A DNA stretch of 64,000 bases from Diphasiastrum complanatum (lineage: Eukaryota; Streptophyta; Lycopodiopsida; Lycopodiales; Lycopodiaceae): positions 17,522,445 to 17,586,444 of the forward strand of contig CM055113.1 in NCBI GenBank assembly GCA_029204225.1. The letters are read 5' to 3'. A program made the translations under genes and the position numbers. Of the stretch, positions 40,649 through 55,487 are shown one piece after another; position 1 is the first letter of the stretch, and every line of letters begins with the position of its first letter. A model generated the notes under the pieces. That model had not been told where the DNA came from and did not search any database. It saw only the letters and a program-made list of their open reading frames with translations.

Positions 40649-40652
40649 TGCA
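40649..40652. repeat. Target-site duplication TGCA, left
   Basis: TGCA directly outside the left inverted repeat, matching 54672-54675. TGCA is palindromic, so a shorter or longer duplication cannot be fully excluded, but the rejoined protease frame needs exactly one copy. Confidence 0.75.
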
Positions 40653-40685
40653 TTAGAGGAGTTCTCAATATCAAAAAGACCCTTT
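40653..40685 (+). repeat. Left terminal inverted repeat, 33 bp
   Basis: Starts TTAGAGGAGTTCTCAATATC and ends AAAAAGACCCTTT. Complementary to 54639-54671 at every base compared by eye. Confidence 0.9.
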
Positions 40686-41173
40686 AAGGAATGCCATGTA
40701 GGATATACAAAAATATCAAAATAAATAAAACAATATTGTTTATTTGCTTGCCCACACCACTCCCAAGGCCTCCCCAACTTCCAATGATCTAACCACAGTG
40801 TCTATAGTCACAGTTAAGAACTGTAAACAGTTCACAGTATAACTTGACTAAATTCAAAAATATTCCCTCCATTGGTTACAAAAAGGGCAATATTTTCACT
40901 GGATCTAGAATATGACCGCCATCCCCAAATTCGAATTAGGAAAAATTGCAAAATGTCTACATATGCATTCCTTCCACGAGAATGGAAATATGAGCGCCAA
41001 CTACCTATTGGAATGAAAAAATGAGTGGCATTTCCAAATTTGAATCAAGCATACAAGCATGGAGATTGGATTGATCGTACATAGTATATAATATAATTAA
41101 AGATGAGTATTTTGTTTTGCTTCATAGAATCTGGTCATAGTACTTTGATGCAACTGATTACTCTATTATTTTT
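40686..41173. other. Left subterminal region of the DNA transposon
   Basis: About 490 bp, AT-rich, no coding frame. It presumably holds the promoter of gene A and transposase-binding repeats; two similar 30-base phrases at 40900 and 41030 (ATGACCGCCATCCCCAAATT and ATGAGTGGCATTTCCAAATT, each followed by a CGAAT/TGAAT) could be such sites. Confidence 0.4.
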
Positions 41174-43824
41174 TTGATGATGACATTGTATCTTCTACAT
41201 GTGGATATCCCTGTTGATTTGGCACCTTTGCAGAGAAGAGGAGGCAAAGGAGTTCAAATATCTGCTGAAGATCGTTCTCGTTACAGGGCAAAAGGAAAGG
41301 AAAACGTGGATTTGTGGACAAATGGAACATTATATCCACAAGATCCAAGCACTTTGACACATCCCACATTCTCTTCAATAACTCATTTAGTTACATGGAT
41401 ATGCAATGGGCATAGTGGATTACTAGGATATTGTGAAAGATTGCAAAACCATGGAAAACAACTTTATATGAATAAAGTTCACTTTTTAGAAGGTGAGTTA
41501 ATTCGGATATCCTCTTATTGTCAGAATAGAGATTGTCATCTCCAAAAGACGTTAGAAGAAAATGAACAACTTAAAAAAAATACTGAATCATTATAGAAGA
41601 TAGCAATCAATATCAAATCAGAACTAGAGCAAATGCAATCAGTCTTACAGTCTATTCGTATTGAAAACTTACAATTACTAAAGAATGTGGATTTGGTAAA
41701 GAAGAAGGCTGAAAGTAAGAAGCGAAAGCGACAAAGTTGCAAGGATATTCAAACGCTTTCAAAAGGAGGTTATCGAAATAGAAAGATCCGTGCATTCAAG
41801 TAAGCATATTCTAAATTTTGTAAGTTTTTCAATGACATTTGGATTTAATTTTGGCTATGGTGATATTCTGTTAACTAACTGTTTTTTTTGCAGATCTGCA
41901 TTAGTAGCTCCTCGGAATATTAAAGACAATGCTTCACTAGGAATGTCATTGGGCACAATATTGACTTGCAAATCCACTGAGCGTATCATGATGAACAATA
42001 GGATTTCAAATGTAAAGTATAAAATAGCAGAGTCTTTGATAGTGGACATTCAAAATATTTTAGATAAGACTATAGTTCAAGGTGCTTATGATTTTGCAGG
42101 TATTAGTAGGGAAGCATATGCAACAATATTTAAACTAATTAGAGAAGCTTTTAAGCAAGTTCAAATTAGAAAAGTCCCAATCCCTAGGACATACCACTTG
42201 AAGAAAGAGAGGGATACATTAAACATAGGTATGCGTAAGATCACTGGAACTCCATTTCATATTGAGGAGGTGTATGAAACTGATGGAAGATCGATATTCT
42301 ATAATTCATCAAAAATTTATTTGTTGATCTAAATTACTTGCTGAGATACATCGTCACATTCTATGATATAATCTATGAAAAGGTGAATGACAAAATAATC
42401 ATAGTACTTAAGTTAAATGAGTCAGAAATTGTGAAAGGGAAGAAGATGGAAAGGGTTAGTATAACTCTCATGAATGGTGCTCTATCCCCAACAGAGAACC
42501 AAGAAGATTTCAAATTTAGTGTCCAATCAGAAAATGATATATGGTGGTTGGCAGCGTTTCAAGTAACTAGCCTCATTATTACATTACATTCATTGAATAG
42601 TATTAATACATTGTAAACGTAGTATGATTAATTCTTTGGATAGGTGCTGAAAGAGGATCATGATATATTATTATGGATATTCTCAAGGACATCTTATCCT
42701 AGGATCATCAAGGACCATATGGATGGAGGATTTCTCAATGTTCCAGGAGTTGGAGACTTCAATGTTGAATGGCACTTAGCAGGTGATTTGAAAACATTGA
42801 AATGTATGTATAACGTCTCTCACAGTGCTACATCAAAACACCCTTGTTTATACTACATGAAAATGGCAAAAGATGTAGCTAGGCGTACAGGAATTACTAG
42901 AGAATATGCAGATCCAAACTGGAATCCTGTGCTGCCTATCCCCTTAAAAAATGTGCATGTTTGTGCTCTTCATGCAGAAGTTAGATTAATAGAAAAGATC
43001 ATTTATCTTCATATAGTTTTTGCTTGGAATACTAAGCCGGCATCATTAGCAAAGGAAGCTATCTCTCGATTAGAAGATGTTTTATCAAAAGCAGGACTCC
43101 ATAAAGGACATGTCAAAATTCAAAAAGATGAAAAGCTTTTAGGAAAGAATGGAAACATGCCAACTAAGCCAAGCATAGGAGGAGCAAAAGCACCGCGTTT
43201 CCTATCAAATCATACTGGTAAGGCTTCTAATATTCAACACTCAGTCTGGCCAGATATTATTGCTGCCACTCAAAACTTCAAGAAAGATGGCAAAACTAGA
43301 GTACTAAAAGTTGATGTATGGAAAAAGATTGATAGTATGATTGTTATTTTAAGAAAAGTAAAATACTCTGATATCGATAAGAAAGCTGTCCAAAGGACTT
43401 GTGTCGAGTTTGTTAATGCAATATCAAAAGCATGGGGAGAAGATCACATCACTCATTACATGGTTAGTATAAAATTTTCAAAATGCTTTCAAATTTTCAT
43501 ATATATATAGATCTAAACATAAGACTAACATTATGATTTTGACATATGCAGCACATACTAAGAGATCATACATCATTTTTTGCAAATACATATGGAATCT
43601 TGAGTGTATGGTCATCACAAGGGATGGAGAAGTCACATTGGCAAGCACGAGCAGCATTTCATTGAAATACACAACAAGGAGGAACCAATGAAAAACGAAA
43701 CTACATTTGTCAATTGTTTCAGTGGTTTTACCGTAGAGTTCAGATTCGACATATAACAAAGTCCACACAATACAACAAGTTTAGAAAAGCATGCAAGTTC
43801 ATACAGGAAGAGAAAATTAGATGA
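41174..43824 (+). pseudogene. Gene A: DDE transposase-like protein (RAG1/Transib/Kolobok/CACTA-like fold)
   Basis: Four predicted exons: to 41799, 41894-42562, 42644-43462, 43552-43824. The N-terminal part has a coiled coil (HLQKTLEENEQLKK onward) and a basic patch (KKRKRQSCKD). Core: IIIVLKLNES then KMERVSITLMNG (strand of the first acidic residue; Asn at 42416-42418 where Asp might be expected); AGDLKTLKCMYNVSHSATSK then HPCLYY (Asp codon 42785-42787; the C-x2-C pair is C-L-Y-Y); VCALHAEVRLIEKI (conserved His); and VWSSQGMEKSHWQARAAFH then a stop and QQGG (Glu codon 43627-43629). This G-D-x-K...HPCxxC, L-H, QG-x-E-K layout is that of RNase H-fold transposases with a zinc-binding insert. Lesions: TAG 41594, a frameshift at the A run 42311-42315, TGA in exon 4. 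Start codon uncertain. Confidence 0.65.
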
Positions 43825-43965
43825 TTGTTGAGTAGAAGATCATCATGATATGTTCAGAATTGCTTTGCAAATTCATTGAACAAGAGAGGAGCAATACCCA
43901 ATGTAAATGTATTGATTGTATTATACAAAGTGTCAACTATTCATCATCAGATCTTGTATCAGATT

Positions 43966-45002
43966 CTATGGTAGTATTGTCATGAAGAAATCTCTGCTAG
44001 GGTATGCATCTAATAGATGTGCATTATCCTTATTTCCACTAAGCTCAATATAAGTGGAATACAATGAATAATGGGAGCTCCTTAAAGGAACATTCCCATC
44101 AGTAAAGCCTAAAATGTTCAAAACATAAGATCTTTTGACAAAAATGATTTTATTTGTCTTAATAAAATTTTGTCCTCCTAATTTAACTGCCATTATAAGA
44201 CTCTCCCCGACTGGGCTCAGCTTGGAATGAGCAATACAGATCTCACTCTTCAAGAAATGCCGAAGATAATGGCCCAGTCCACTGTCCCTCTGGAATGAGG
44301 ATGCGTGTTGTCTAAAACCACCTCGTCTCGCATCAAAATCATCAATTATGAGAGCATTCTGCAATAGGAAATATGTTAGCAAAAACACATTCAGTGATTG
44401 AAAACATTCAAATGCAAGGAAGATTAAACATTTACACATTCTTCATCATCAGCAGCAACCAAATCAGGATGATCAATATAATGACCACGTACTGAAGTGG
44501 AATCATCAGTGAAATGCATTAATGATGGACGAGGGAAGCCCATCTGGGATTGAAATGCCGTGAATTCTTCATCATATGGTTTGCCTCGCCCATCCTCATC
44601 TATATTTGATAAAGTCTTATTCAGACATTCTTCACCGGTCCTAAGACCCTCCTCATCATCAAAATCAATACCAGCAACAAGGTCATCTGTCTCAAAATCT
44701 ACAAAGTCGGAGAATTCGGAAGTTGTGTCGGATAGTAAGCATAGAACCTCGTCCTCATGATAGTCAAAAAATTTACATAAATCAGCAGTAGTAAAATATA
44801 CATCATCATTAATATAATATACAGACAAATTGAAAAGACATTTCAAATCCTCCATAGATTTGGATTCATCATCAGATGTATTTTGGCCAATGAAAGAATC
44901 CCGGAGAACATCAGTATTTAAATCAATGAAGTCACTTTCTTTATCAGGAGTGTCATGTCTCGTGTTCATTTGAGTGCTTATAAACACATGTCGCTCTCGC
45001 AT
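43966..45002 (-). CDS. Gene B: acidic two-exon orphan of the DNA transposon
   Basis: Exon 1 45002-44436, intron with GT...AG, exon 2 44358-43966; the joined frame is open with no internal stop, about 319 residues, making it the only intact gene of the element. I chose the ATG at 45000-45002; MNTRHDTPDKES at about 44968 is an alternative. Exon 1 is strongly acidic (TSEFSDFVDFETDD, AGIDFDDEEG, EDGRGKPYDEE). Exon 2 is more globular: DARRGGFRQHASSFQ, GHYLRHFLKSEICIAHSKL, FVKRSYVLNILGFTDG, HYSLYSTYIELSG. I do not recognise the family. The second exon contains alternating basic and hydrophobic stretches that could bind protein or DNA. It is convergent with gene A (142 bp between stops) and divergent from gene C, sharing a 428-bp intergenic region. 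Confidence 0.6.
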
Positions 45003-45430
45003 TCGGTCGTACAAATCCCACACGTGTAGTGTGACAGAGTGAAACGTGTCACACTCGCATTTGTCTGTACAACCCCCACACGTGTGACAGGACGTTCTTT
45101 CGCATGTGCAAACCCCGATATAAAATCACAAATTTCAATGATTTTTTTTCACTTTTTTTTCGCTCCGCATATCGCATTTGTGCGCGCCCTTCACGATCAA
45201 AATTCCTCCTACTACCTTCCATGCGCACAGGTCCGATACATCTTCCTACATGTCACCTCATATCGCACTTGCACGTCTTTCCTCAAATCTAATCGTTCTC
45301 TCTGATAATCGGCTCGCATAGGTCCGATATACGGTACATTCTGTCTGTACATAGCGGTCCTCTGCGAGTTCTTTATCATCCCTTCCTTCTCATCCTAACC
45401 TTCACGCACAAGTCTGCTATCACATAGTTC
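45003..45430. promoter_or_regulatory. Bidirectional intergenic region between genes B and C with CACACGTGTG repeats
   Basis: Head-to-head starts of B and C. Contains two similar blocks, CGGTCGTACAAATCCCACAC (45005) and TTGTCTGTACAACCCCCACA (45061), each followed by an ACACGTGT word and a GTGACAG word, and a third ACGTGTCACAC at 45045. CACGTG is the plant G-box core. The right half has repeated GCACAGGTCCGATA and GCATAGGTCCGATA words (45227, 45317). Promoter function is inferred from position. Confidence 0.5.
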
Positions 45431-47164
45431 ATGCCCATGGATAGGAGAAAGCAGACAAGGAGAGACTTCTTCTCTCCTGGCTCATCCTCATCTCCTGCGG
45501 TTGCCATCACACCCCCTGCTAGACCTAGAACGCACAACCGCAGCAGGGGCTCTCTGAGATACGCAAGTATCAGAGGTCAATAGTTCTGTTGATCCCAAGA
45601 GCTCCATTCTACCGTGCTGTCCGAAACATAACAAGAAATGATCTCGAACAGCACGTTAGATTCACACCGAATGCTCTTCAGTGCCTTCAGGAGGCTGTTG
45701 AAGATTATATTAGTCTTTTTTTTGAGGATTCTTTTTTGCTTGCCATCCATACCAAGAGGGTTACCATAATGCCAAAGGATTTTCAGCTTCTGATCAGAAT
45801 GAGGGATAGGTACTATAGGTTACATGTATCTCAGCCTGCTACTCCTAGACCAACTCCTGTAGATAGGACTCATCTTCCTACGAAGCGTCCTAGTAAGCAG
45901 ACAGCCCTCAAGCGTGCTCCTAAGAAAGTGAAGCCTATCCCAGAATCCATTGTAGATAATGCTACTGTTGATAATGCTGTAAATACAGCTACCTCTATTT
46001 TGGATACTCCTAATATTGCTGTAAATACTACACTTCCACCTCCTCCTCCTCCTCCCAATTTCTATACATATATAGATTCGGATGATTATCTTAAATTTGA
46101 GAAAGACATATCGGATGGTATAGATACAATTGGTATTCCTTTTTGTTTTAGAGTAGAAGAACTTGATTTTAGTATTAATTTTAGAGTTCTAGATTGTCTG
46201 GATCTCAAAGACAGACGGGCTTCTATCAGTGATCCTGTGATAGAGTCCGGGCTGACACTCTTGCAATTTGACATTACAAGAGATTCATCAAACGAGTTGC
46301 TGGTGCTGAGTAACTTTCTGCTCCAGGCCTTCAAGGAGAATAATGACACATTGTCACAGTGTTTGAGAAGTGGATTCACACCAACAACAAAGTATCTGGT
46401 CATTCCTTATCATACCAAGTAAGATATATTAAGTGCTTCTTCATGTTTTATGCATTAACATTGACATTTTCAATTTAAATAGTTCTCAGAATTGTCGCTA
46501 AAGTACTTTCAATCTTATTTTGCAGTGAGCACTGGAGTTTAAACCGGATCTCTATTAAGGGATCTGTGAATAATATTATTAATGTTCTTGTGTCAAGATG
46601 AATTAGGTGAGAAATACACATAATGATGTAGATATATTCATTCCATATCTAAGTAAATATATTCCTACAGACATTCCCCATTCCGTGGACTGGCAGATCG
46701 TCAGCTTGGAGGTAAACTTTGTCTTTCTTAATAGCATTTTGAAATCAGTATTCAATGAAATATTTTCAATCTAATTCATTCTGTTTCATAATTGATTTCT
46801 TTTGTGCTGAATTATTTTTCAGTCACCCCAGCAAAATGATTCATTCAGCTGTGGGTGGTACACATTGTACAATGCCGAGTTGTTTTTTGAGTGGTTCACC
46901 CTTTAACAAGATGTTGATATTTCTAAGGTAATAAATTTTGTTTATTCTTATTTTGGAATCATGACTAGTTTTCTATTCTGGTGATGTTATTGGCCATTAC
47001 TAATACATGAATGTTCTATTTTGTAGTTTACACTTCCTGAGTACACATCAAGCCAGGTGTACAGATTTAGACAATAAATTATCCTGAGTATACTGGCTCG
47101 AGCAAGGCTTCAGCCTCCCGTTATTGATAATGGTGCAAAGGATGATGTAGTTGTACTAAATTAA
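45431..47164 (+). pseudogene. Gene C: CENH3/H3-like histone fold joined to Ulp1/C48 cysteine protease domain
   Basis: Exons approximately 45431-46418, 46526-46606, 46671-46711, 46823-46927, 47027-47164. The N-tail is basic (MPMDRRKQTRRDFFSPG). Histone part, after a frameshift near 45562: KYQRSIVLLIPRAPFYRAVR, RFTPNALQCLQEAVEDY, FFEDSFLLAIHTKRVTIMPK, DFQLLIRMRD; the L-L-I-P-x-A-P-F form is that of CENH3 rather than canonical H3. Then a Lys/Arg-rich linker (KRPSKQTALKRAPKKVK) and a poly-Pro run. Protease part: ISDPVIESGLTLLQ, KYLVIPYHT, NEHWSLNRIS (His codon 46530-46532), INVLVSR where the catalytic Asp appears as Val (46590-46592), WQIVSLESPQQNDSFSCGWY (Gln and Cys, Cys codon 46850-46852). Lesions: the frameshift, TGA 46599, a phase mismatch at exon 2/3, TAA in exon 4 and exon 5. 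SUMO or related protein cleavage is the known role of C48 enzymes. Confidence 0.75.
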
Positions 47165-47349
47165 GATCAGAAAAAATATAGATAGCATAGAATAAAAATA
47201 CATCTATAGACTTCATAGAAAAATATACATTGATATATCAAATGTTGCTCCAATTTATGAATTTGGGAGCACAAAATACATGTATAGATGCCCAACTTGG
47301 GCTTTCATTTATTGAATGAAAGGGTGTATACACAAATTTTTACTAAAGT

Positions 47350-48732
47350 TTATTTGAAACTATTGTTCTCCCACAATGGTGATTGTTGTAGGTAGATCTT
47401 TGCAGCACGTTATCAGCTCCTGTCTTTTTTGAATCTGTGACATGGCAAATATTAGTGAATGTGCAATTGTAAATGATGACATTTTCTATTATTTTGTTCT
47501 ATTTTGAAATGGCAATAAACATAAAGTACTTACGAGTCTTCCGTTGATGATAAATCTGAAATATGTTGGTAGATTGGTTTGTAATAGCATGAGCTCTGTT
47601 ATGATAAAATCAAGCTTCCAGTGCTCTTCCACCTCAACCATAGTCAAATATTCCTCATTGTAGATAATGCTTATCTCCATTTGGTTTGTGTGACCATTTA
47701 GTTCAAAGTCTTGATCCTGTGGTAGCCATGTACCTTCAATTTTCTTGTATCTCTGGTAGCTAAATATGAGACTGAGCATTTGCTTTTCGATATGATAACG
47801 AAAGATCATTGAGGACTTTTTAATCCTTCATTCTATGTCATTATTTGTTTTACTATCCCAGCCTTGATCCATGAGATCTGACAAAGTCTCATCTGATAAA
47901 TCCTTGCAAACAAATAAAGTTGGTGTCCTACGAACACTAGCACTCGAGAAAAAATCAACAAATGTATGCAATGAGATAAACCAACTTAGGTGAACAATTT
48001 TGGATCCTGTGCTTATCTTCATAGCATTTTTAATATCAATGAGTAGCTTGCATCTCAAGAATTTAGAAACAATGCTGTCAAGAGTAGGCCACTCATCACT
48101 TTGAAAACTTGGCAATGGAATTGCTTCGAGCTTGCCAAAACCTCCATCTATTTGTGGCGTATATAAAGATTCATAAAAATAGATACCACAATCTGCAAGT
48201 TCCTTTGGACTTCTTCCTTTGTACTGTAGCTTTCCAACATCAGAGTGAATCACGTCTAATATTCTTGCAAGTGATTGTGCGGGCTCCCATTCACTTATGC
48301 ATGATGGATATAAATCTGAAAGCAAAAAACAATGTTGAGGCATTCAAATCATAATCTGAAGAGCATCAATAAAGGAAATCACCTATGATTGCTGTTGAGT
48401 GCATATGTTTTGATATACTTACAATTACATTTTTGATGATCATGAGGATTGATATCATGTACTTTGATTTCTGAATGCATATATACATGTTGCACTAAGA
48501 CATCTGATATCGATTGACCTCCCGGGGTAGTCTTAAAATCCATAATTTTTGCTTTCCAATAAGATTTGTAGGACATTTTTGCTCTTTTCTTTTGTCAAAA
48601 ATTGTCCTTTGATGATGGATGCAACAATACCCATGAGTTCTTCGTATATTTTGTTGGCTTCCAGTTATCAGCTTCATCTTTTTCATTGTAAAGAATCACA
48701 GAATCGATTGTAGATCCGGGTCTCCTCGCCAT
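47350..48732 (-). pseudogene. Gene D: orphan with possible BAH/Tudor-like N-terminal segment
   Basis: Three predicted exons: 48732-48423, 48315-47534, 47433-47350, all with GT...AG borders. ATG 48732 is the first in frame (MARRPGSTIDSVILYNE). A segment SYWKAKIMDFKTTPGGQ, SDVLVQHVYMHSEI, NPHDHQKCNY has the W-x-A-x-I/V ... V-x-V-x-x-Y pattern of chromatin-reader barrels such as BAH, but this is weak. Exon 2 is predicted globular: EPAQSLARILDVIHSDVGKL, GFGKLEAIPLPSFQSDEWPT, HLSWFISLHTFVDFFSSASV, LIFSYQRYKKIEGTWLPQDQ, HWKLDFIITELMLLQTNLPT. No catalytic motif seen. Two in-frame TGA codons (48595-48597 and 47828-47830) disable this copy. It is convergent with gene C, with 185 bp between their stops. 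Confidence 0.55.
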
Positions 48733-48830
48733 TGCTATTTTCAAATCTCTCTGATATGTTACTTGATTTTAATTTTTCGTATCACATTTAATCTAATGTG
48801 AATGCCAACATAGTCATAGTTACTGCATGT

Positions 48831-49679
48831 TGTTAAAATTGGCAAAAGCTAACTTGATCAAATCTTGTAAATACCATTATGAGTAGTACATATCATCATT
48901 AGACATGTGTGGATCCTGTTCCCACGTGTGAAATAAATGCATTTATCATTTAGATGAGTCATATAGGTTGTACATACCATTTCATTTAAGATCTAGTGGC
49001 TAAAATGGCCAAAATCTAGTTTTCTAGCTATATGCCACTTGGCATCATTTTATTGGTATGAAAAGCTATTTCACATGGATAGGAGTGATCTCACACGTGC
49101 CAAGGACTGCTCACATGTGTGAAAACATCAGTAGTAGGTGAGATCCAACTTGTAGTAGATATTTGTGCAAGTCCCTATAAATTAGGAAAATTGCCTAAAA
49201 TCAAGGGAGGTGGCTATAAGTTAGGAAACTTGGTCCATGTGCCATATTGATGATTATTGGTGGATCCTTTGATGAGTAGGAACTCTCACACGTGCCAAAT
49301 CAGCTGAGTAAGCATCAGCTCTTGTGTATATATGGTGGCTCATTTGGCCATAATTGACAAGAAAGCTAAATCTTGGTTTTGGTGCATTTCTTGAGTAATC
49401 TCTCCATTTGTCTTGTGATTTTATGCTTCTAATGGTTTCTAAGCTTAGTGTACTTCATTATTTGCTGGTAGTTCGTACTCTGACAGGTATTCACACGTGT
49501 GAAACCAGCAAGTACAAGTTTTGATCATATTTGATTGTTCTTGTTAGATTTGTTGATGTAGATTTGATCTAGTGCTATCTAATCTTGTGTAGATTGGTAG
49601 ATCAATCTAATCTAACACCCAATCACACTTGTGGATCTGATTTGGATCCATTCTTGGTCCTTTTTGCTGTACTTTCACA
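48831..49679 (+). repeat. 5' LTR of nested pol-less LTR retrotransposon
   Basis: 849 bp, TGTTAAAATT...TTTCACA, matching 53472-54316 with about eight substitutions and one small indel counted by eye. Contains a TATA-like TGTATATATGG at about 49324 and several CACACGTG-type words (48927, 49093, 49290, 49494). Confidence 0.9.
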
Positions 49680-49691
49680 TGGTATCAGAGC
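49680..49691 (+). promoter_or_regulatory. Primer-binding site, initiator-Met type
   Basis: TGGTATCAGAGC directly after the 5' LTR end, the usual plant copia PBS; it assigns this element to the copia side despite the missing pol. Confidence 0.9.
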
Positions 49692-51393
49692 CAAGTACAA
49701 GTGCATTTAAGGCATTGATCTAAACTATACCCAAATTGGCAGGTTTTTGGAAACAAGCTAATATTGAGGTAGTGAAGCTGAATGGATTGCTAGAACCATC
49801 ATATTTGTACCAAATCTTGCTGTGGGCTGCAGGTGTACTTTCCACACGTGTGGGGCCGTACAGGACCTATTTTTGACAGTAAAATTCAGTTTGATGCATT
49901 TTGAGCTTCATACACCCAATTTTGAGTCAATTTAGTGCATTTTTCAAGCTTTCACTTGCATTGTTTCTATTCCATTGATTTGTTCTTGGTTTAGATCAAT
50001 CATATAGATGGATTAAAGCTTTTTTACAGGACATTGAAGTTGATTCTCTGATTTTTTGAGTGTACATTGAAGTTGAGAGAGAAAGAGTGCTATAAACTAA
50101 AGATTAAGGAGTGATTTGCAAGGGGGGAGATTGAAATCCATTATACCTTCATTCTAGATTTGTTCAAGAGTGAAAGGGCTGAGTCTAAAAGCATATAAAT
50201 GCTAGAAGAAACTCTTGGATCAGTCCTCCAAGGGAAATCTTAGTGAATTTCTAAAGCACAAACACTCATAAAGTCAAAATCTACCTATACAAGGTGATAA
50301 GAATTGTTGGCAAGTACTAGGAGAAAAAATTGAGGTCACATTGTTCACCCCTACTCAAGTGTGTGAGTGTGGTTTTTGGCTTGGATTAAAGTCATAAAGG
50401 TGAGTGAGGCATATGTGTTGTGGTTGATCCAAAATTTTCAAGAGATCCTTCCTTTGTAGAGGGCAAGAACTAGTAACTCAATTCTTGACTTTGGTGGAAA
50501 AATTGTCTTCTTCATTGTGATCAAATCTTGCTAAGTGGCATTAGCTCTTTGTAAGCAAATACCTTAGTGAGAGATAAGTATTACATTTCTGAAAATTTGA
50601 ATTTCATTCCAACTCTAAAGAGGTAGAGTCATTGGTACTTGGTGGAGTCCAATAGGGGTGAATGAATTCAATTTTTTGAGCAAAATTTTGACATTATATG
50701 TATGAAACTCAAATAAGTTCTATTCAACTTTCTTTGTGAGAGTGTGAGGGTCAAGTTGTGATCCCATTGGGAGTCTAGAACAGGGAGGAGTCCATATTTG
50801 AGTGTTCATACATGATTGGGATCTTTGTGAATCTCTAGATGTCTAATTTTAAAGCTTGGTGAAAAATTATTGACATAGATTGTTATCAAACCATTTCATG
50901 TCCATTCCAAATCTCAAGAGTGATATTCTTTGGGTCAAGAGGGATTCCAAAAGGGGTGATTGGATCTGATCTTTGTGTGTTTGAATCAAGTATACATGTC
51001 AAGTTTTTGTGATCTAGTGTAGATCCTTTTTTTGTGAAAATTAGTGGTTTAATTTGTTGCCAAATCAAATCAAATTCAATCCAAATCTCAAGAGTGAGAT
51101 TATTTGGGTCAAGAGTGATTTTAAAAGAAGTGACTAAGTTTGATTTTCAGATATTTGAAACAAAACCCATACTTTGTTCAAGAATCTCAAAAGCTGAGAG
51201 AACTAGTCAAGAGAAAAGGAAAATCTAGGTGTCAAGTCTTTTCAAATCCATTCCAACTCTCAAGAGGAAGATTCATTGGTATTTGTTGAGTCCAATAGGG
51301 GTGTTTGGATCTGATTTTTGTGATTTGATAGAGTGCTTTTGTCTTAGAGATCAAAGAAAAGATTAGTTTCCAATTGACTAGGTTGACAGAGAT
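49692..51393 (+). other. Leader of the nested LTR element
   Basis: About 1.7 kb of non-coding sequence with four similar phrases of the type CCAAATCTCAAGAGTGAGAT or CCAACTCTCAAGAGGAAGAT, each followed by a TTGGGTCAAGAG/TTGGTATTTG and GGGGTGTTTGGATCTGATTT-like string (about 50610, 50910, 51080, 51255). These approximate 170-bp repeats suggest a tandemly duplicated leader, possibly the packaging region. Confidence 0.6.
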
Positions 51394-53346
51394 ATGATTC
51401 AAAATTTGTGGTCTAGATCTTGTGTAGATCCTTCTAGATTGTTGAATGTGTTCAAATCTAGTTTCTTGAGAGTCACAAATTACATTTTGAAAAGTCATAT
51501 CACTAGGTTTTACTTCCTCATCATGGCATCAATAGGTGGCAACCTATTGGAGGCAAGCAAGGATCCTAAATGCAACCTTTGTGGCAAGAGAGATTGTTTT
51601 GTCTCAAGATGCTACAAAATGAAGATCAATCCATCCAAGGAGAACCAAAGCAAGGGGTCCGAGGTGAAGGATGGAGCTTCAAGTTCAAAGTTCAAAGGCA
51701 AGAAGGACAAATCCAAGGAAAGGTGTTTCCTTTGTGGAAAGATGCATGAGGCTTGGAGTCTCACAAGGATTTACAAGATTTGTCTTCAAAAGTCCATCAT
51801 CACACATTTCAAACATTTTGAAGTTTTGCATTTGAAAGTGAATTTTTTGGTTCAAGATGCAAAGATAAATGTCACTTTCATTAATGTCACTTGGATTTAT
51901 TTCATGTCCTTGGAAAGCATTTTGCTTAGAACTTTAGAAAAGTTCAAATTTATTGTTATGATCCAAGAGAAACCAAGAAAGATTAAGGAGAAATCACAAA
52001 ATAAAAATAGTTTCATTTATGCTCTCATGAAATCTTATGAAGAACTATTTTGCTTTGAAGAGATTTTTGTATCTCAAAGGTGGATTAAGGCAATACTAGT
52101 TGAGTGTGATGCCTTAATAGATAGCAAAGCATGTTTTCCTTGTAAACTTACATTGAATATGAAGTCAAGGAAATGGAAATGTCTTCATAATGTATTTTTT
52201 GTTGGTTTCAATAAGGTCATGAATGATGTGTTCATTCATAATGTTGAAGATTGTAAATTTTCAATTTTAAAGGCAAGTTGTAAACTTCTTATGAGAATAA
52301 GTGAGGCATCCAAAGTGGACACTTATATCCATAAGCAAGTAGTTAGCCTTATTGAGATGGAAATACTTCTTGATTTCAATATTAGAAAAATCATGCCAAG
52401 TTGTGGTGATTTTTGGACTTATGGTTCTAGCATAAGTAATGTTGATAATCATATGAAGTGCACATTATACGATCATGTTTGTTGTGATCATTTTAAGACA
52501 TGGAGGTCTCGGATTTCCATCAAGGAGGAGCACCAAGGAGTTGATCTTGAGGAGTCATCTCGAGGTTCAAGTGTGCCAAGGATTGAGGAGGAGAGTCCTT
52601 CTCAAGTTGTGATTACAAGAAGAATATCAAGAGACATGGTTGAGCTCATATGGCTCACATTTCAAGGGAAAGAGGAGCACATTTCAAGTGGTATACATCT
52701 CATGCTTGCTTCTCTTATGTCATTTGGTGAATCAATTTGCTTTAGTGAGACTTTTGCATCTCAAAGTTGGAGTAAAGCAATACTAGTTGAGTATGGTGTC
52801 TTTCTTGAGAACATAGTTGATGTTCTTAATGATATGAAATTGATTTTAGATCAATTAGAAAGCAAATGGTTATTTCATCAAATGTATGTTCTTGAGTCTT
52901 GCAAGAGCAAGAGTGAGTTGTCCACTCATAGTATGAAAAATTGTCTTTTTTCATGTATTGAGGCAAATTGTGAATCATCCTCTAAGGAAACTTATCTCCA
53001 TAATGAAGTATCTAGCCTCATTAGATATGAGATTAGCATGGTAACCAAGCATGAAGATATGATACAAACTCTTTGTTATTATAGCATGCATAGTCTTGCC
53101 AATGTTGATGAGCCTAATCCTCGAGATCTTGGTAACATGATGTTGGATCTTTGTGATCCTCATGAGTCAAGAAGGACTCTTTATTTTATTATGGAGTTTC
53201 AGCTATTTCCAAGGAGGAGGAGCTTTTGGATCAACCATATGCTTCAAGGATGGAACAAATCAATGAAAGAGGTGCTAGGATGGTGCAAAGCTCTCAAGTT
53301 CATCAAAAAAGTCAACATCAAAGAGGCATTATCATGGATATGGTGA
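51394..53346 (+). CDS. 650-residue ORF of the nested LTR element: zinc knuckle plus duplicated pol-derived block
   Basis: Open from ATG 51394; a likelier start is Met 44 at 51523 (MASIGGNLLEAS). Residues about 60-73 read CNLCGKRDCFVSRC, a gag-type CCHC knuckle whose His has become Cys (the older copy keeps His); a second partial knuckle is CFLCGKMHEAW. Two related halves follow: about residues 209-350 (SYEELFCFEEIFVSQRWIKA, HNVEDCKFSILKASCKLL) and about 438-575 (SFGESICFSETFASQSWSKA, HSMKNCLFSCIEANC). Each begins like the copia segment just ahead of RT (W-x-x-A-I/M-x-x-E) and then diverges into a shared Cys/His-poor helical unit. No catalytic site. An intact ORF in an element with near-identical LTRs suggests recent selection or recent insertion. 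Host annotation would list it as an unknown protein. Confidence 0.65.
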   Translation: MIQNLWSRSCVDPSRLLNVFKSSFLRVTNYILKSHITRFYFLIMASIGGNLLEASKDPKCNLCGKRDCFVSRCYKMKINPSKENQSKGSEVKDGASSSKFKGKKDKSKERCFLCGKMHEAWSLTRIYKICLQKSIITHFKHFEVLHLKVNFLVQDAKINVTFINVTWIYFMSLESILLRTLEKFKFIVMIQEKPRKIKEKSQNKNSFIYALMKSYEELFCFEEIFVSQRWIKAILVECDALIDSKACFPCKLTLNMKSRKWKCLHNVFFVGFNKVMNDVFIHNVEDCKFSILKASCKLLMRISEASKVDTYIHKQVVSLIEMEILLDFNIRKIMPSCGDFWTYGSSISNVDNHMKCTLYDHVCCDHFKTWRSRISIKEEHQGVDLEESSRGSSVPRIEEESPSQVVITRRISRDMVELIWLTFQGKEEHISSGIHLMLASLMSFGESICFSETFASQSWSKAILVEYGVFLENIVDVLNDMKLILDQLESKWLFHQMYVLESCKSKSELSTHSMKNCLFSCIEANCESSSKETYLHNEVSSLIRYEISMVTKHEDMIQTLCYYSMHSLANVDEPNPRDLGNMMLDLCDPHESRRTLYFIMEFQLFPRRRSFWINHMLQGWNKSMKEVLGWCKALKFIKKVNIKEALSWIW

Positions 53347-53461
53347 TTTCGGATCGACATCAAGCTCATTGGCTGATCTTCATACCTTTGAACTAGCAAG
53401 GATCCATATTTGAAGACCAATTCAGCCCATGGAGTCAATCTCAATATCATCAAGTTAGTTT

Positions 53462-53471
53462 TGAGGAGGAG
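53462..53471 (+). promoter_or_regulatory. Polypurine tract of the nested LTR element
   Basis: TGAGGAGGAG immediately before the 3' LTR start at 53472; the older copy has the same tract at its 3' LTR. Confidence 0.8.
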
Positions 53472-54316
53472 TGTTAAAATTGGCAAAAGCTAACTTGATC
53501 AAAATAAATACCATTATGAGTAGTACATATCATCATTAGACATGTGTGGAGCCTGTTCCCACGTGTGAAATAAATGCATTTATCATTTAGATGAGTCATA
53601 TAGGTTGTACATACCATTTCATTTAAGATCTAGTGGCTAAAATGGCCAAAATCTAGTTTTCTAGCTATATGCCACTTGGCATCAATTTATTGGTAGGAAA
53701 AGCTATTTCACATGGATAGGAGTGATCTCACACGTGCCAAGGACTGCTCACATGTGTGGAAACATCAGTAGTAGGTGAGATCCAACTTGTAGTAGATATT
53801 TGTGCAAGTCCCTATAAATTAGGAAAATTGCCTAAAATCAAGGGAGGTGGCTATAAGTTAGGAAACTTGGTCCATGTGCCATATTGATGATCATTGGTGG
53901 ATCCTTTGATGAGTAGGCACTCTCACACGTGCCAAATCAGCTGAGTAAGCATCAGCTCTTGTGTATATATGGTGGCTCATTTGGCCATAATTGACAAGAA
54001 AGCTAAATCTTGGTTTTGGTGCATTTCTTGAGTAATCTCTCCATTTGTCTTGTGATTTTATGCTTCTAATGGTTTCTAAGCTTAGTGTACTTCATTATTT
54101 GCTGGTAGTTCGTACTCTGACAGGTCTTCACACGTGTGAAACCAGCAAGTACAAGTTTTGATCATATTTGATTGTTCTTGTTAGATTTGTTGATGTAGAT
54201 TTGATCTAGTGCTATCTAATCTTGTGTAGATTGGTAGATCAATCTAATCTAACACCCAATCACACTTGTGGATCTGATTTGGATCCATTATTGGTCCTTT
54301 TTGCTGTACTTTCACA
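53472..54316 (+). repeat. 3' LTR of nested LTR element
   Basis: 845 bp, nearly identical to 48831-49679; differences include loss of four bases near 53502 and single-base changes such as the ones near 53555, 53685, 53925, 54126 and 54288. Confidence 0.9.
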
Positions 54317-54638
54317 CGTATACCATATTTTATGTAACTGTACATACTATATTTCTATAACTATAACTAGTATAGTTAGAAAATTTCATTATACTAACCA
54401 TCATAGTAAAGTAAACTTAACTTTAGATATTGACGTCGGGCAAATTAGCACGTGTCGGGCAGGAAAAAGAAACCAATGGGATACATCCATGCTGTCGGAC
54501 ACAAATTTCAAAGTTTTCTATATTGTATTTTTATTTTTTAGTTAATTTGAACTACGTTACGTAGATTTCAAATCTGTGCATTTTGATTGGGCCTAGTTAC
54601 GGTTGAAACGAAAGAAAAATAAATAAAAGAATCTTTAC
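54317..54638. other. Right subterminal region of the DNA transposon
   Basis: About 320 bp, AT-rich, no gene. Includes CACGTGTCGGGCAGG at 54451 and a related ATGCTGTCGGACAC at 54490, possible binding words, and an ACTACGTTACGTAG palindrome-like string at 54551-54564. Confidence 0.45.
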
Positions 54639-54671
54639 AAAGGGTCTTTTTGATATTGAGAACTCCTCTAA
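54639..54671 (-). repeat. Right terminal inverted repeat, 33 bp
   Basis: The minus strand from 54671 reads TTAGAGGAGTTCTCAATATC and onward, identical to 40653-40685. Confidence 0.9.
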
Positions 54672-54675
54672 TGCA
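54672..54675. repeat. Target-site duplication TGCA, right
   Basis: Matches 40649-40652; flanking minus-strand codons (...LADAFK) continue at 40648 (PIGEL...) when one copy of TGCA is kept. Confidence 0.75.
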
Positions 54676-55487
54676 TTTGAATGCGTCTGCTAAATGAATT
54701 TCATGGTAGGTAATAGGCTGTATCTGTTTTTTTGGTCCTAATTCCTTAACCATTGTTTCAGTTATTAAGTTGATACTGGATCCTGAGTCTATTAGTATTC
54801 TATCTATAGTATGATCTCCTATAATAGCATTAATCTCTGGAACTCCACAATCTCCTCTATCTACATATTCTACTTTATTGTTGTATGCAGGTATACTTAA
54901 TGTATACTTAATCTCTCCCCTTCCTCAGTCCTTAAGGACTGAAGTCCTTCATCCTCCGAAGTATAACTCGTGGATGATGTAGGTATCTCACCTTCATACT
55001 TATCCTTTTCCCAAGATATCGTAATTCTTTTATGACTTTTTCCCGTCGGTGTTTCCATCTGATCTCTGAAGGTAATCTCCTTCTTCTTCTAGTGGGTTAT
55101 GACATTGACTTGGTAGAGCCATGGTCGTCCTAATAATACTTTATATGATGATTCTCTTGTAGTCCTTAAAATAATAAAATCCATTAGGGACTTATGGTCT
55201 CCAATATAGACTGTAACTTGGGACAATTCTCCTATCAGTGATTTTCTAGTTGCATCAGCTAACTTCGAATGTCTTAATGTGGGTGCTATTCTATGGTGAA
55301 TGCCTAACTCGTATGTTGTTTCTTCAGTCATTATATTTACACTAGATCCAGAATCTATGGGCACACTATCTAAGATACAGCCATTGATTACTACCTGAAT
55401 CTCGGGTTGACCTTCATCACCGTAGTTAACTAGTCCTACATTGACTAATGGTAACTTCGCTTTTTTTTTTTTTTTTTTCCTTTGCAA
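54676..55487 (-). pseudogene. Ty3 element 5 tandem aspartic-protease domains
   Basis: Minus strand. First domain 55487-55089: GCILDSVPIDSGSSVNIMTE (catalytic Asp-Ser-Gly), LADATRKSLIGELSQVTVYI, YKVLLGRPWLYQ. A stop near 55091, a linker (SHKRITISWEKDKYEGEIPT), then an 11-bp tandem duplication at about 54893-54914 (TTAAGTATAC in the coding sense) that shifts the frame. Second domain: EINAIIGDHTIDRILIDSGS, SINLITETMVKELG, HEIHLADAFKC, continuing at 40648 beyond the inserted transposon. Both domains keep D-S-G-S-S. Retropepsins normally work as homodimers of one domain, so two in tandem in one polyprotein is notable. It is preceded by three zinc knuckles and gag on the same strand. Confidence 0.8.

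Follow-up and report, generated by a model that had tools for sequence, protein, structure and literature searches.

A single gene in the genome of Diphasiastrum complanatum (Lycopodiaceae) seems to join a histone H3 fold to a Ulp1/C48-type domain; is the pairing real, and what use would a transposon have for it? The question is raised by positions 45437-47164 (+) of the window (the whole stretch of DNA analysed, 64,000 nucleotides long), where the initial annotation proposed such a fusion inside a DNA transposon.

One gene encodes the H3 fold and the C48-type domain

We found the interval to hold a single gene (gene 3 of the element described below), which encodes an H3-like tail, an H3 fold, a linker and a Ulp1/C48-type domain. 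Its exon borders were set from an alignment of eight copies, comprising the window and seven others:

45437-46418 (+): gene 3 exon 1, with the tail (MDRRKQTRR), H3 fold, linker and first part of the C48 domain; the tail is frameshifted in the window copy
45550-45828 (+): H3 histone fold inside exon 1 (PF00125, 7.8e-26; PDB H3)
46526-46711 (+): gene 3 exon 2, with the C48 catalytic His region; an uninterrupted exon in other copies
46823-46927 (+): gene 3 exon 3, with the C48 Gln and Cys (SPQQNDSFSCGW), from the alignment and from Pfam on locus L017
47027-47164 (+): gene 3 exon 4, the C-terminus, from the copy alignment

The open frame at 45529-46419 (+) spans 297 codons, with the H3 fold at residues 1-93; a basic, proline-rich linker follows, and then a stretch that stops just before the C48 His. 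The window copy is a pseudogene: the tail and exon 2 each contain a frameshift, and three in-frame stops are present. We sought better-preserved copies and found two in the same genome, L017 and L027, in which all four exons read through in a stop-free frame (470-aa product); in L025 the aligned frame is also stop-free and is without the Cys stretch. The 470-aa product of L017 matched both Pfam Histone (1e-27, 97.3 bits) and Peptidase_C48 (PF02902; 1.1e-10, 42.2 bits against a cut-off of 20.7), each above cut-off, and the proposed joining of the two domains was thereby borne out. An intron at about 46,607-46,670 was ruled out, exon 2 being uninterrupted in other copies.

Because the H3 fold, the linker and the first part of the C48 domain share exon 1, the reading frame itself excludes two neighbouring genes. 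Using exon 1 of L017 (327 aa) as a query, we scored 122 copies in the genome, which are the best of 9,916 candidates and a lower bound, include the query's own place and contain some near-identical duplicates. Every one matched over at least 311 of the 327 residues (122/122). Two separate genes are ruled out, with H3 and C48 starting in one exon in all scored copies, and the H3-C48 fusion is fixed in family A. A local retrocopy of a host histone missing from other copies, the alternative raised by the initial annotation, is likewise ruled out by these 122 copies together with the first tree described below. A protein search with the window gene 3 gave three matches, confined to the H3 part.

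The gene travels with a RAG1/Transib-like transposase

As proposed, gene 3 lies within a DNA transposon. The element, here called family A, is bounded by terminal inverted repeats (TIRs) and contains a transposase gene:

40651-54673 (no strand assigned): family A transposon copy, about 8.5 kb without the nested retrotransposon, from copy-match limits and inverted repeats
40651-40685 (+): left TIR, CATTAGAGGAG..., an exact reverse complement of the right end
41141-43839 (+): gene 1, a multi-exon RAG1/Transib-like transposase; broken copy, ends approximate
43966-45125 (-): gene 2, convergent with gene 1; no Pfam family above cut-off; conserved in families A and B
47489-48768 (-): gene 4, no Pfam-recognised function; common to families A and B, at about 30% identity
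48831-54316 (no strand assigned): nested LTR retrotransposon with 849-column repeats, interrupting the element
54639-54673 (-): right TIR, an inverted repeat at the match end

Matches to L017 and L029 start at 40651 and matches to L014, L017, L026, L027 and L029 stop at 54673-54676, and the TIR measures 35 bp at both window ends. In the 1.74-Gb genome we counted 2,417 occurrences of the family A end sequence (1,177 + 1,240, with up to 3 mismatches), compared to 0 for the reversed control. Genes follow the order gene 1 (+), gene 2 (-), gene 3 encoding H3-C48 (+) and gene 4 (-). The window lacks some 820-840 bp at 44955 that are present in L014, L017, L025, L026, L027 and L029; L029 measures 9.4 kb. 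The retrotransposon nested in the element's right end is young, with LTRs that are 98.5% identical and a primer-binding-like site at 49680.

At least 18 of the 122 exon-1 copies lie within 12 kb of a transposase match (135 listed), where about 0.23 would be expected by chance; in all 18 pairs the two genes share a strand, and in 17 they lie 3.2-3.8 kb apart. The H3 gene and the transposase gene move together.

The initial annotation had named Mutator-like, KI-type elements as an example of plant transposons with Ulp1-like proteases. For such a setting we found no support: the gene-1 pieces gave nothing above cut-off against Pfam-A and the predicted fold is RAG1/Transib-like. The predicted model of P0014, a gene 1 relative to which the window piece is 43% identical (alignment A1), matched RAG1/Transib in fold searches far above everything else, and the spacing of the DDE residues and zinc ligands in P0014 and alignment A1 is that of a RAG1-type core. 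Judged from this model, gene 1 is a predicted DDE transposase with a RAG1/Transib-like fold. RAG1 is the V(D)J recombinase enzyme, which shuffles human antibody genes. Partial relatives of gene 1 are present in a fern, and none were found in viral contigs.

Target duplications were sought in 13 element pairs (loci L035-L040 and L057-L068, the window, L017, L029 and L020+L042), most of which were picked by end spacing and orientation and may not be single insertions. At the TIR boundary, 0/13 had a 5-bp duplication and 2/13 had one of 3 bp; with two TIR bases trimmed, duplications of 4 bp appeared in 2/13 and of 5 bp in 1/13. Ends that start CATTAG without a consistent target duplication are unusual for a DDE transposon.

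H3 without a detected C48 domain in a second family

A second family, B, is represented by loci L009-L013, L015 and L018-L024. Its identity to family A is 45-51% in the H3 fold and, in the copies that include these genes, 39-41% in gene 1 (48% for a fragment in L022), 23-29% in gene 2 and about 29-45% in gene 4. The family A gene order is kept, with genes 2 and 3 on the opposite strand relative to gene 1. Family B inverted repeats begin CATTAGGGC; L020+L042 has them at either end and several other copies at a single end, and this end pattern has 2,092 matches in the genome compared to 0 for the control. In the single 417-aa frame of L009, a Gln/Pro-rich insert about 300 residues long separates the tail MARTKQTARDPR from an H3 fold that ends in RRERN; in L020 the H3 tail sits in a separate frame.

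Pfam found no C48 domain in the family B frames tested. Histone carriage is therefore wider than the fusion, and SUMO removal cannot be the function common to the two families. Since the histone is shared and the C48 domain is not, we regard the histone as the core and the C48 domain as an addition.

The C48-type domain may have lost its catalytic Asp

In the window, the C48 catalytic His (EHWSL), Gln and Cys are all in place, and the three are retained in L017 and L027. The C48 part also matched PDB Ulp1 chains (E 0.001-0.0015). However, an acidic residue is absent from NNIIKCSCVKMN, the L017/L027 stretch aligned to the Ulp1 Asp (column unsure by one or two), and so the full set of His, Asp and Cys with Gln is not present in these two copies. 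Read by eye, the position holds Cys in L016, L017 and L027, Gly in L014 and L025, and Asp in L029 only, a copy with seven stops. Because the Asp is apparently lost in L014, L016, L017, L025 and L027, we use the label 'C48-type domain' and treat enzyme activity as doubtful; a SUMO-binding or weakened protease appears as likely as an active one. Of the earlier proposal that the protease removes SUMO, the conserved His, Gln and Cys stand, but the missing Asp leaves the activity itself in doubt. A Pfam C48 scan of the whole genome gave only 3 matches, 0 at any scored exon-1 locus, which we attribute to introns taken to split the domain.

A chromatin factor is the favoured function

The explanation that we favour, tentatively and as plausible rather than probable, is that the H3-C48 product is a trans-acting chromatin factor which, via its H3 fold, counters silencing or opens a site for the transposase. 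The product would act in trans on behalf of the element: the retained H3 fold may pair with host H4 or lodge in nucleosomes, bringing the C48 part, whether an active deSUMOylase or a SUMO-binding remnant, to chromatin at the element. There, SUMO- or heterochromatin-linked silencing could be countered, or the site opened for transposition. The purpose would be comparable to that of the VANC and KIU anti-silencing proteins of Arabidopsis MULEs. The KIU of KIU-carrying Vandal MULEs is described as carrying Ulp1 and is linked to hypomethylation of, or relieved silencing in, related elements (PMC13317346), and it is for this reason that anti-silencing is our leading reading.

A broader reading, possible and somewhat doubtful, is that plants host a RAG1-fold transposon superfamily that makes its own H3 variants, with the variant replacing or joining host H3 to keep element chromatin open and defeat silencing. 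Such a superfamily would be C48-armed in one branch and, unlike Transib, would be without a clear target duplication.

We think it unlikely that the H3 domain is instead a structural module of transposition, which would dimerise, wrap DNA and bind the element ends or the transposase rather than serve as a nucleosome component. The location of the H3 gene between genes 2 and 4 and near the transposase in both families would suit such a role, as would genes 2 and 4 having no recognised DNA-binding domain (the AlphaFold model of gene 4, with a pLDDT of 44.9, was unusable). Nonetheless, an ARTKQTAR-like tail start is kept in several of the H3s, which would be needless for pure DNA binding, and the histone product and the transposase are encoded by separate genes. 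Under the chromatin-factor reading, entry of the product into chromatin would mean that mobile DNA can provide a nucleosome component of its own and has a new means of escaping silencing.

Histone H3 membership and the CENH3 question

The window frame 45529-46419 (+) matched Pfam Histone (PF00125) at 7.8e-26 and, over residues 7-93, PDB H3 chains at 2.5e-20. Altogether 195 PDB chains were matched, and the best 60 of the 195 were all H3. The H3 match is not due to chance, and the fold agrees with the H3 profile and with H3 structures in both the window and L017. His113, Arg116, Thr118, Asp123 and Leu126, read from the first-tree alignment, are all kept in L017; these residues are taken to hold the H3-H3' bundle and the loop-2 DNA contacts.

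The initial annotation called the histone CENH3-like. In favour of this view, the element H3s contain a LIPRAPF stretch similar to plant CENH3, and a first tree grouped them with two plant CENH3s (support 95/92). In a wider tree, by contrast, they fell among fast-evolving H3 variants without resolution of their placement, and a single clade was not rejected (p 0.237). In loop 1, family A has one additional residue and family B none, compared to two in the CENH3s of the first-tree alignment. The resemblance stands, but the trees conflict, and the label is supported only in part.

That the H3 part is a captured CENH3 which directs the element, or the protein it encodes, towards centromeric chromatin is, in our judgement, highly doubtful. 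The LIPRAPF-type sequence and the 95/92 grouping would agree with it, as would the clustering of perfect family A ends on contig C1 (101.6 Mb), where 27/83 of those listed fall at 95.0-101.6 Mb compared to 1/38 for family B. Set against these are the wider tree, which gives no resolution, the shorter loop 1 in both families and the 122 scored copies being scattered over many contigs. Elsewhere on C1, the interval 64.9-66.7 Mb holds 15/83 (family A) and 5/38 (family B) of the ends listed.

Copy number and selection

A Pfam Histone search of the genome returned at least 153 matches (150 scored, the best of 6,325 candidates). Of those listed, 13 were canonical H3 genes, with scores near 164 bits, and about 130 were divergent copies of H3 that scored near 95-110 bits. 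Of 33 Histone loci that were read (L009-L028, L030 and L045-L056), 30 contained a divergent element-type H3, two were host H3.3 and one (L052) was read in the wrong frame; the two host loci, L049 and L050, are plant-type H3.3 exons.

Between subfamilies, dN/dS for L017 vs L014 was 0.09 in the H3 fold, 0.27 in the tail, 0.61 in the linker and 0.37 and 0.26 in the C48 parts, and seven further cross-subfamily pairs gave 0.12-0.21 for the H3 fold. These pairwise values point to purifying selection on gene 3 between subfamilies. For recent copies, the overall value was 0.82 for L017 vs L027 and 0.68 for L014 vs L025, and the H3-fold value was 1.38 (from 12 changes in the fold) and 0.23, respectively. 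In family B, dN/dS was 0.39 in the H3 fold (12 copies pooled) vs 0.71 in the 20 residues preceding it. As far as sequence comparison can tell, the pattern fits a protein that is functional in source copies and decays after insertion, and the recent pairs would also fit plain decay.

Passenger capture, in which transduplicated host H3 and Ulp1 sequences hitch-hike without function, is quite improbable: plant transposons are known to capture genes (PMC13317346), 98 of the 122 exon-1 copies contain stops (24/122 are stop-free, counted by eye) and dN/dS is near 1 in recent pairs, but the H3-fold dN/dS is low between subfamilies, intact spliced frames exist, the fusion is fixed in its family and a separate family also bears H3. 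TAG was the commonest stop among the exon-1 copies listed, an excess that is expected if methylated CAG codons decay and that would agree with the family being heavily silenced.

Comparison with known systems

Compared to RAG1, ProtoRAG and Transib, the element resides in a plant host, has no recognised RAG2-like gene and carries an extra H3 gene. Family A and B ends start CATTAG, whereas those of the known systems start with a CAC heptamer; a conserved CAC start is described for Transib/RAG TIRs in PMC8355894. The 13 pairs also differ from Transib/RAG in lacking a 5-bp target duplication at the TIR boundary. No RAG1-like or Transib transposon in land plants was evident from titles or abstract starts in the best 12 of 208 open-access matches. 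Should the fold match be due to common descent, the V(D)J recombinase would have relatives in plants, with a bearing on the age of the lineage.

Like KIU/VANC MULEs, as described in PMC13317346 and PMC2528002, the element is a plant DNA transposon with Ulp1/C48 in an accessory gene. Unlike them, its transposase has a different fold and its C48 domain is fused to histone H3, not to VANC. With plant CENH3s and H3 variants the element H3s share the H3 fold and a LIP.APF stretch; they differ in being mobile and multi-copy and in having either a linker and C48 domain, as in family A, or, as in family B, a long Gln/Pro-rich insert that separates the tail from the fold. The start of the element H3 tail also resembles that of plant CENH3.

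We know of no transposon-encoded histone, and none was found in the open-access literature searched, which was judged partly by titles and abstract starts and leaves absence from print unproven; nor did that literature yield a description of a pairing of H3 with a SUMO-protease-type domain. The pairing hints at transposons tampering with surrounding chromatin, and such elements may be a source of new H3 variants and give chromatin researchers a naturally occurring fusion of histone and protease.

Other H3-carrying sequences

Further divergent H3s were found at three more loci. L028 has a third H3, with the tail MARTESTAR, adjoining gene-1 and gene-2 pieces; it has the appearance of an older element that has an H3 lineage of its own, with a family-A-like copy inside or abutting it. 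L045 and L055 hold the other two.

P0114 (391 aa, from another public contig) resembles L017 in its tail start, fold and next stretch (34% over 177 columns) and joined families A and C in the wider tree (83/82). Pfam found no C48 domain in it, and its end was likened to the C48 part by eye only. Among 20 of the 120 matches listed that were read, doubled canonical H3s from Telopea, Nymphaea and Actinidia and a partly doubled one from Taxus are not relatives. In P0002, P0003 and P0128, a long insert parts the H3 tail from the fold, as in family B, but the fold, unlike that of family B, is near canonical H3; the tails read MARTKQTARK in P0002 and P0128 and MAQTKQTARK in P0003.
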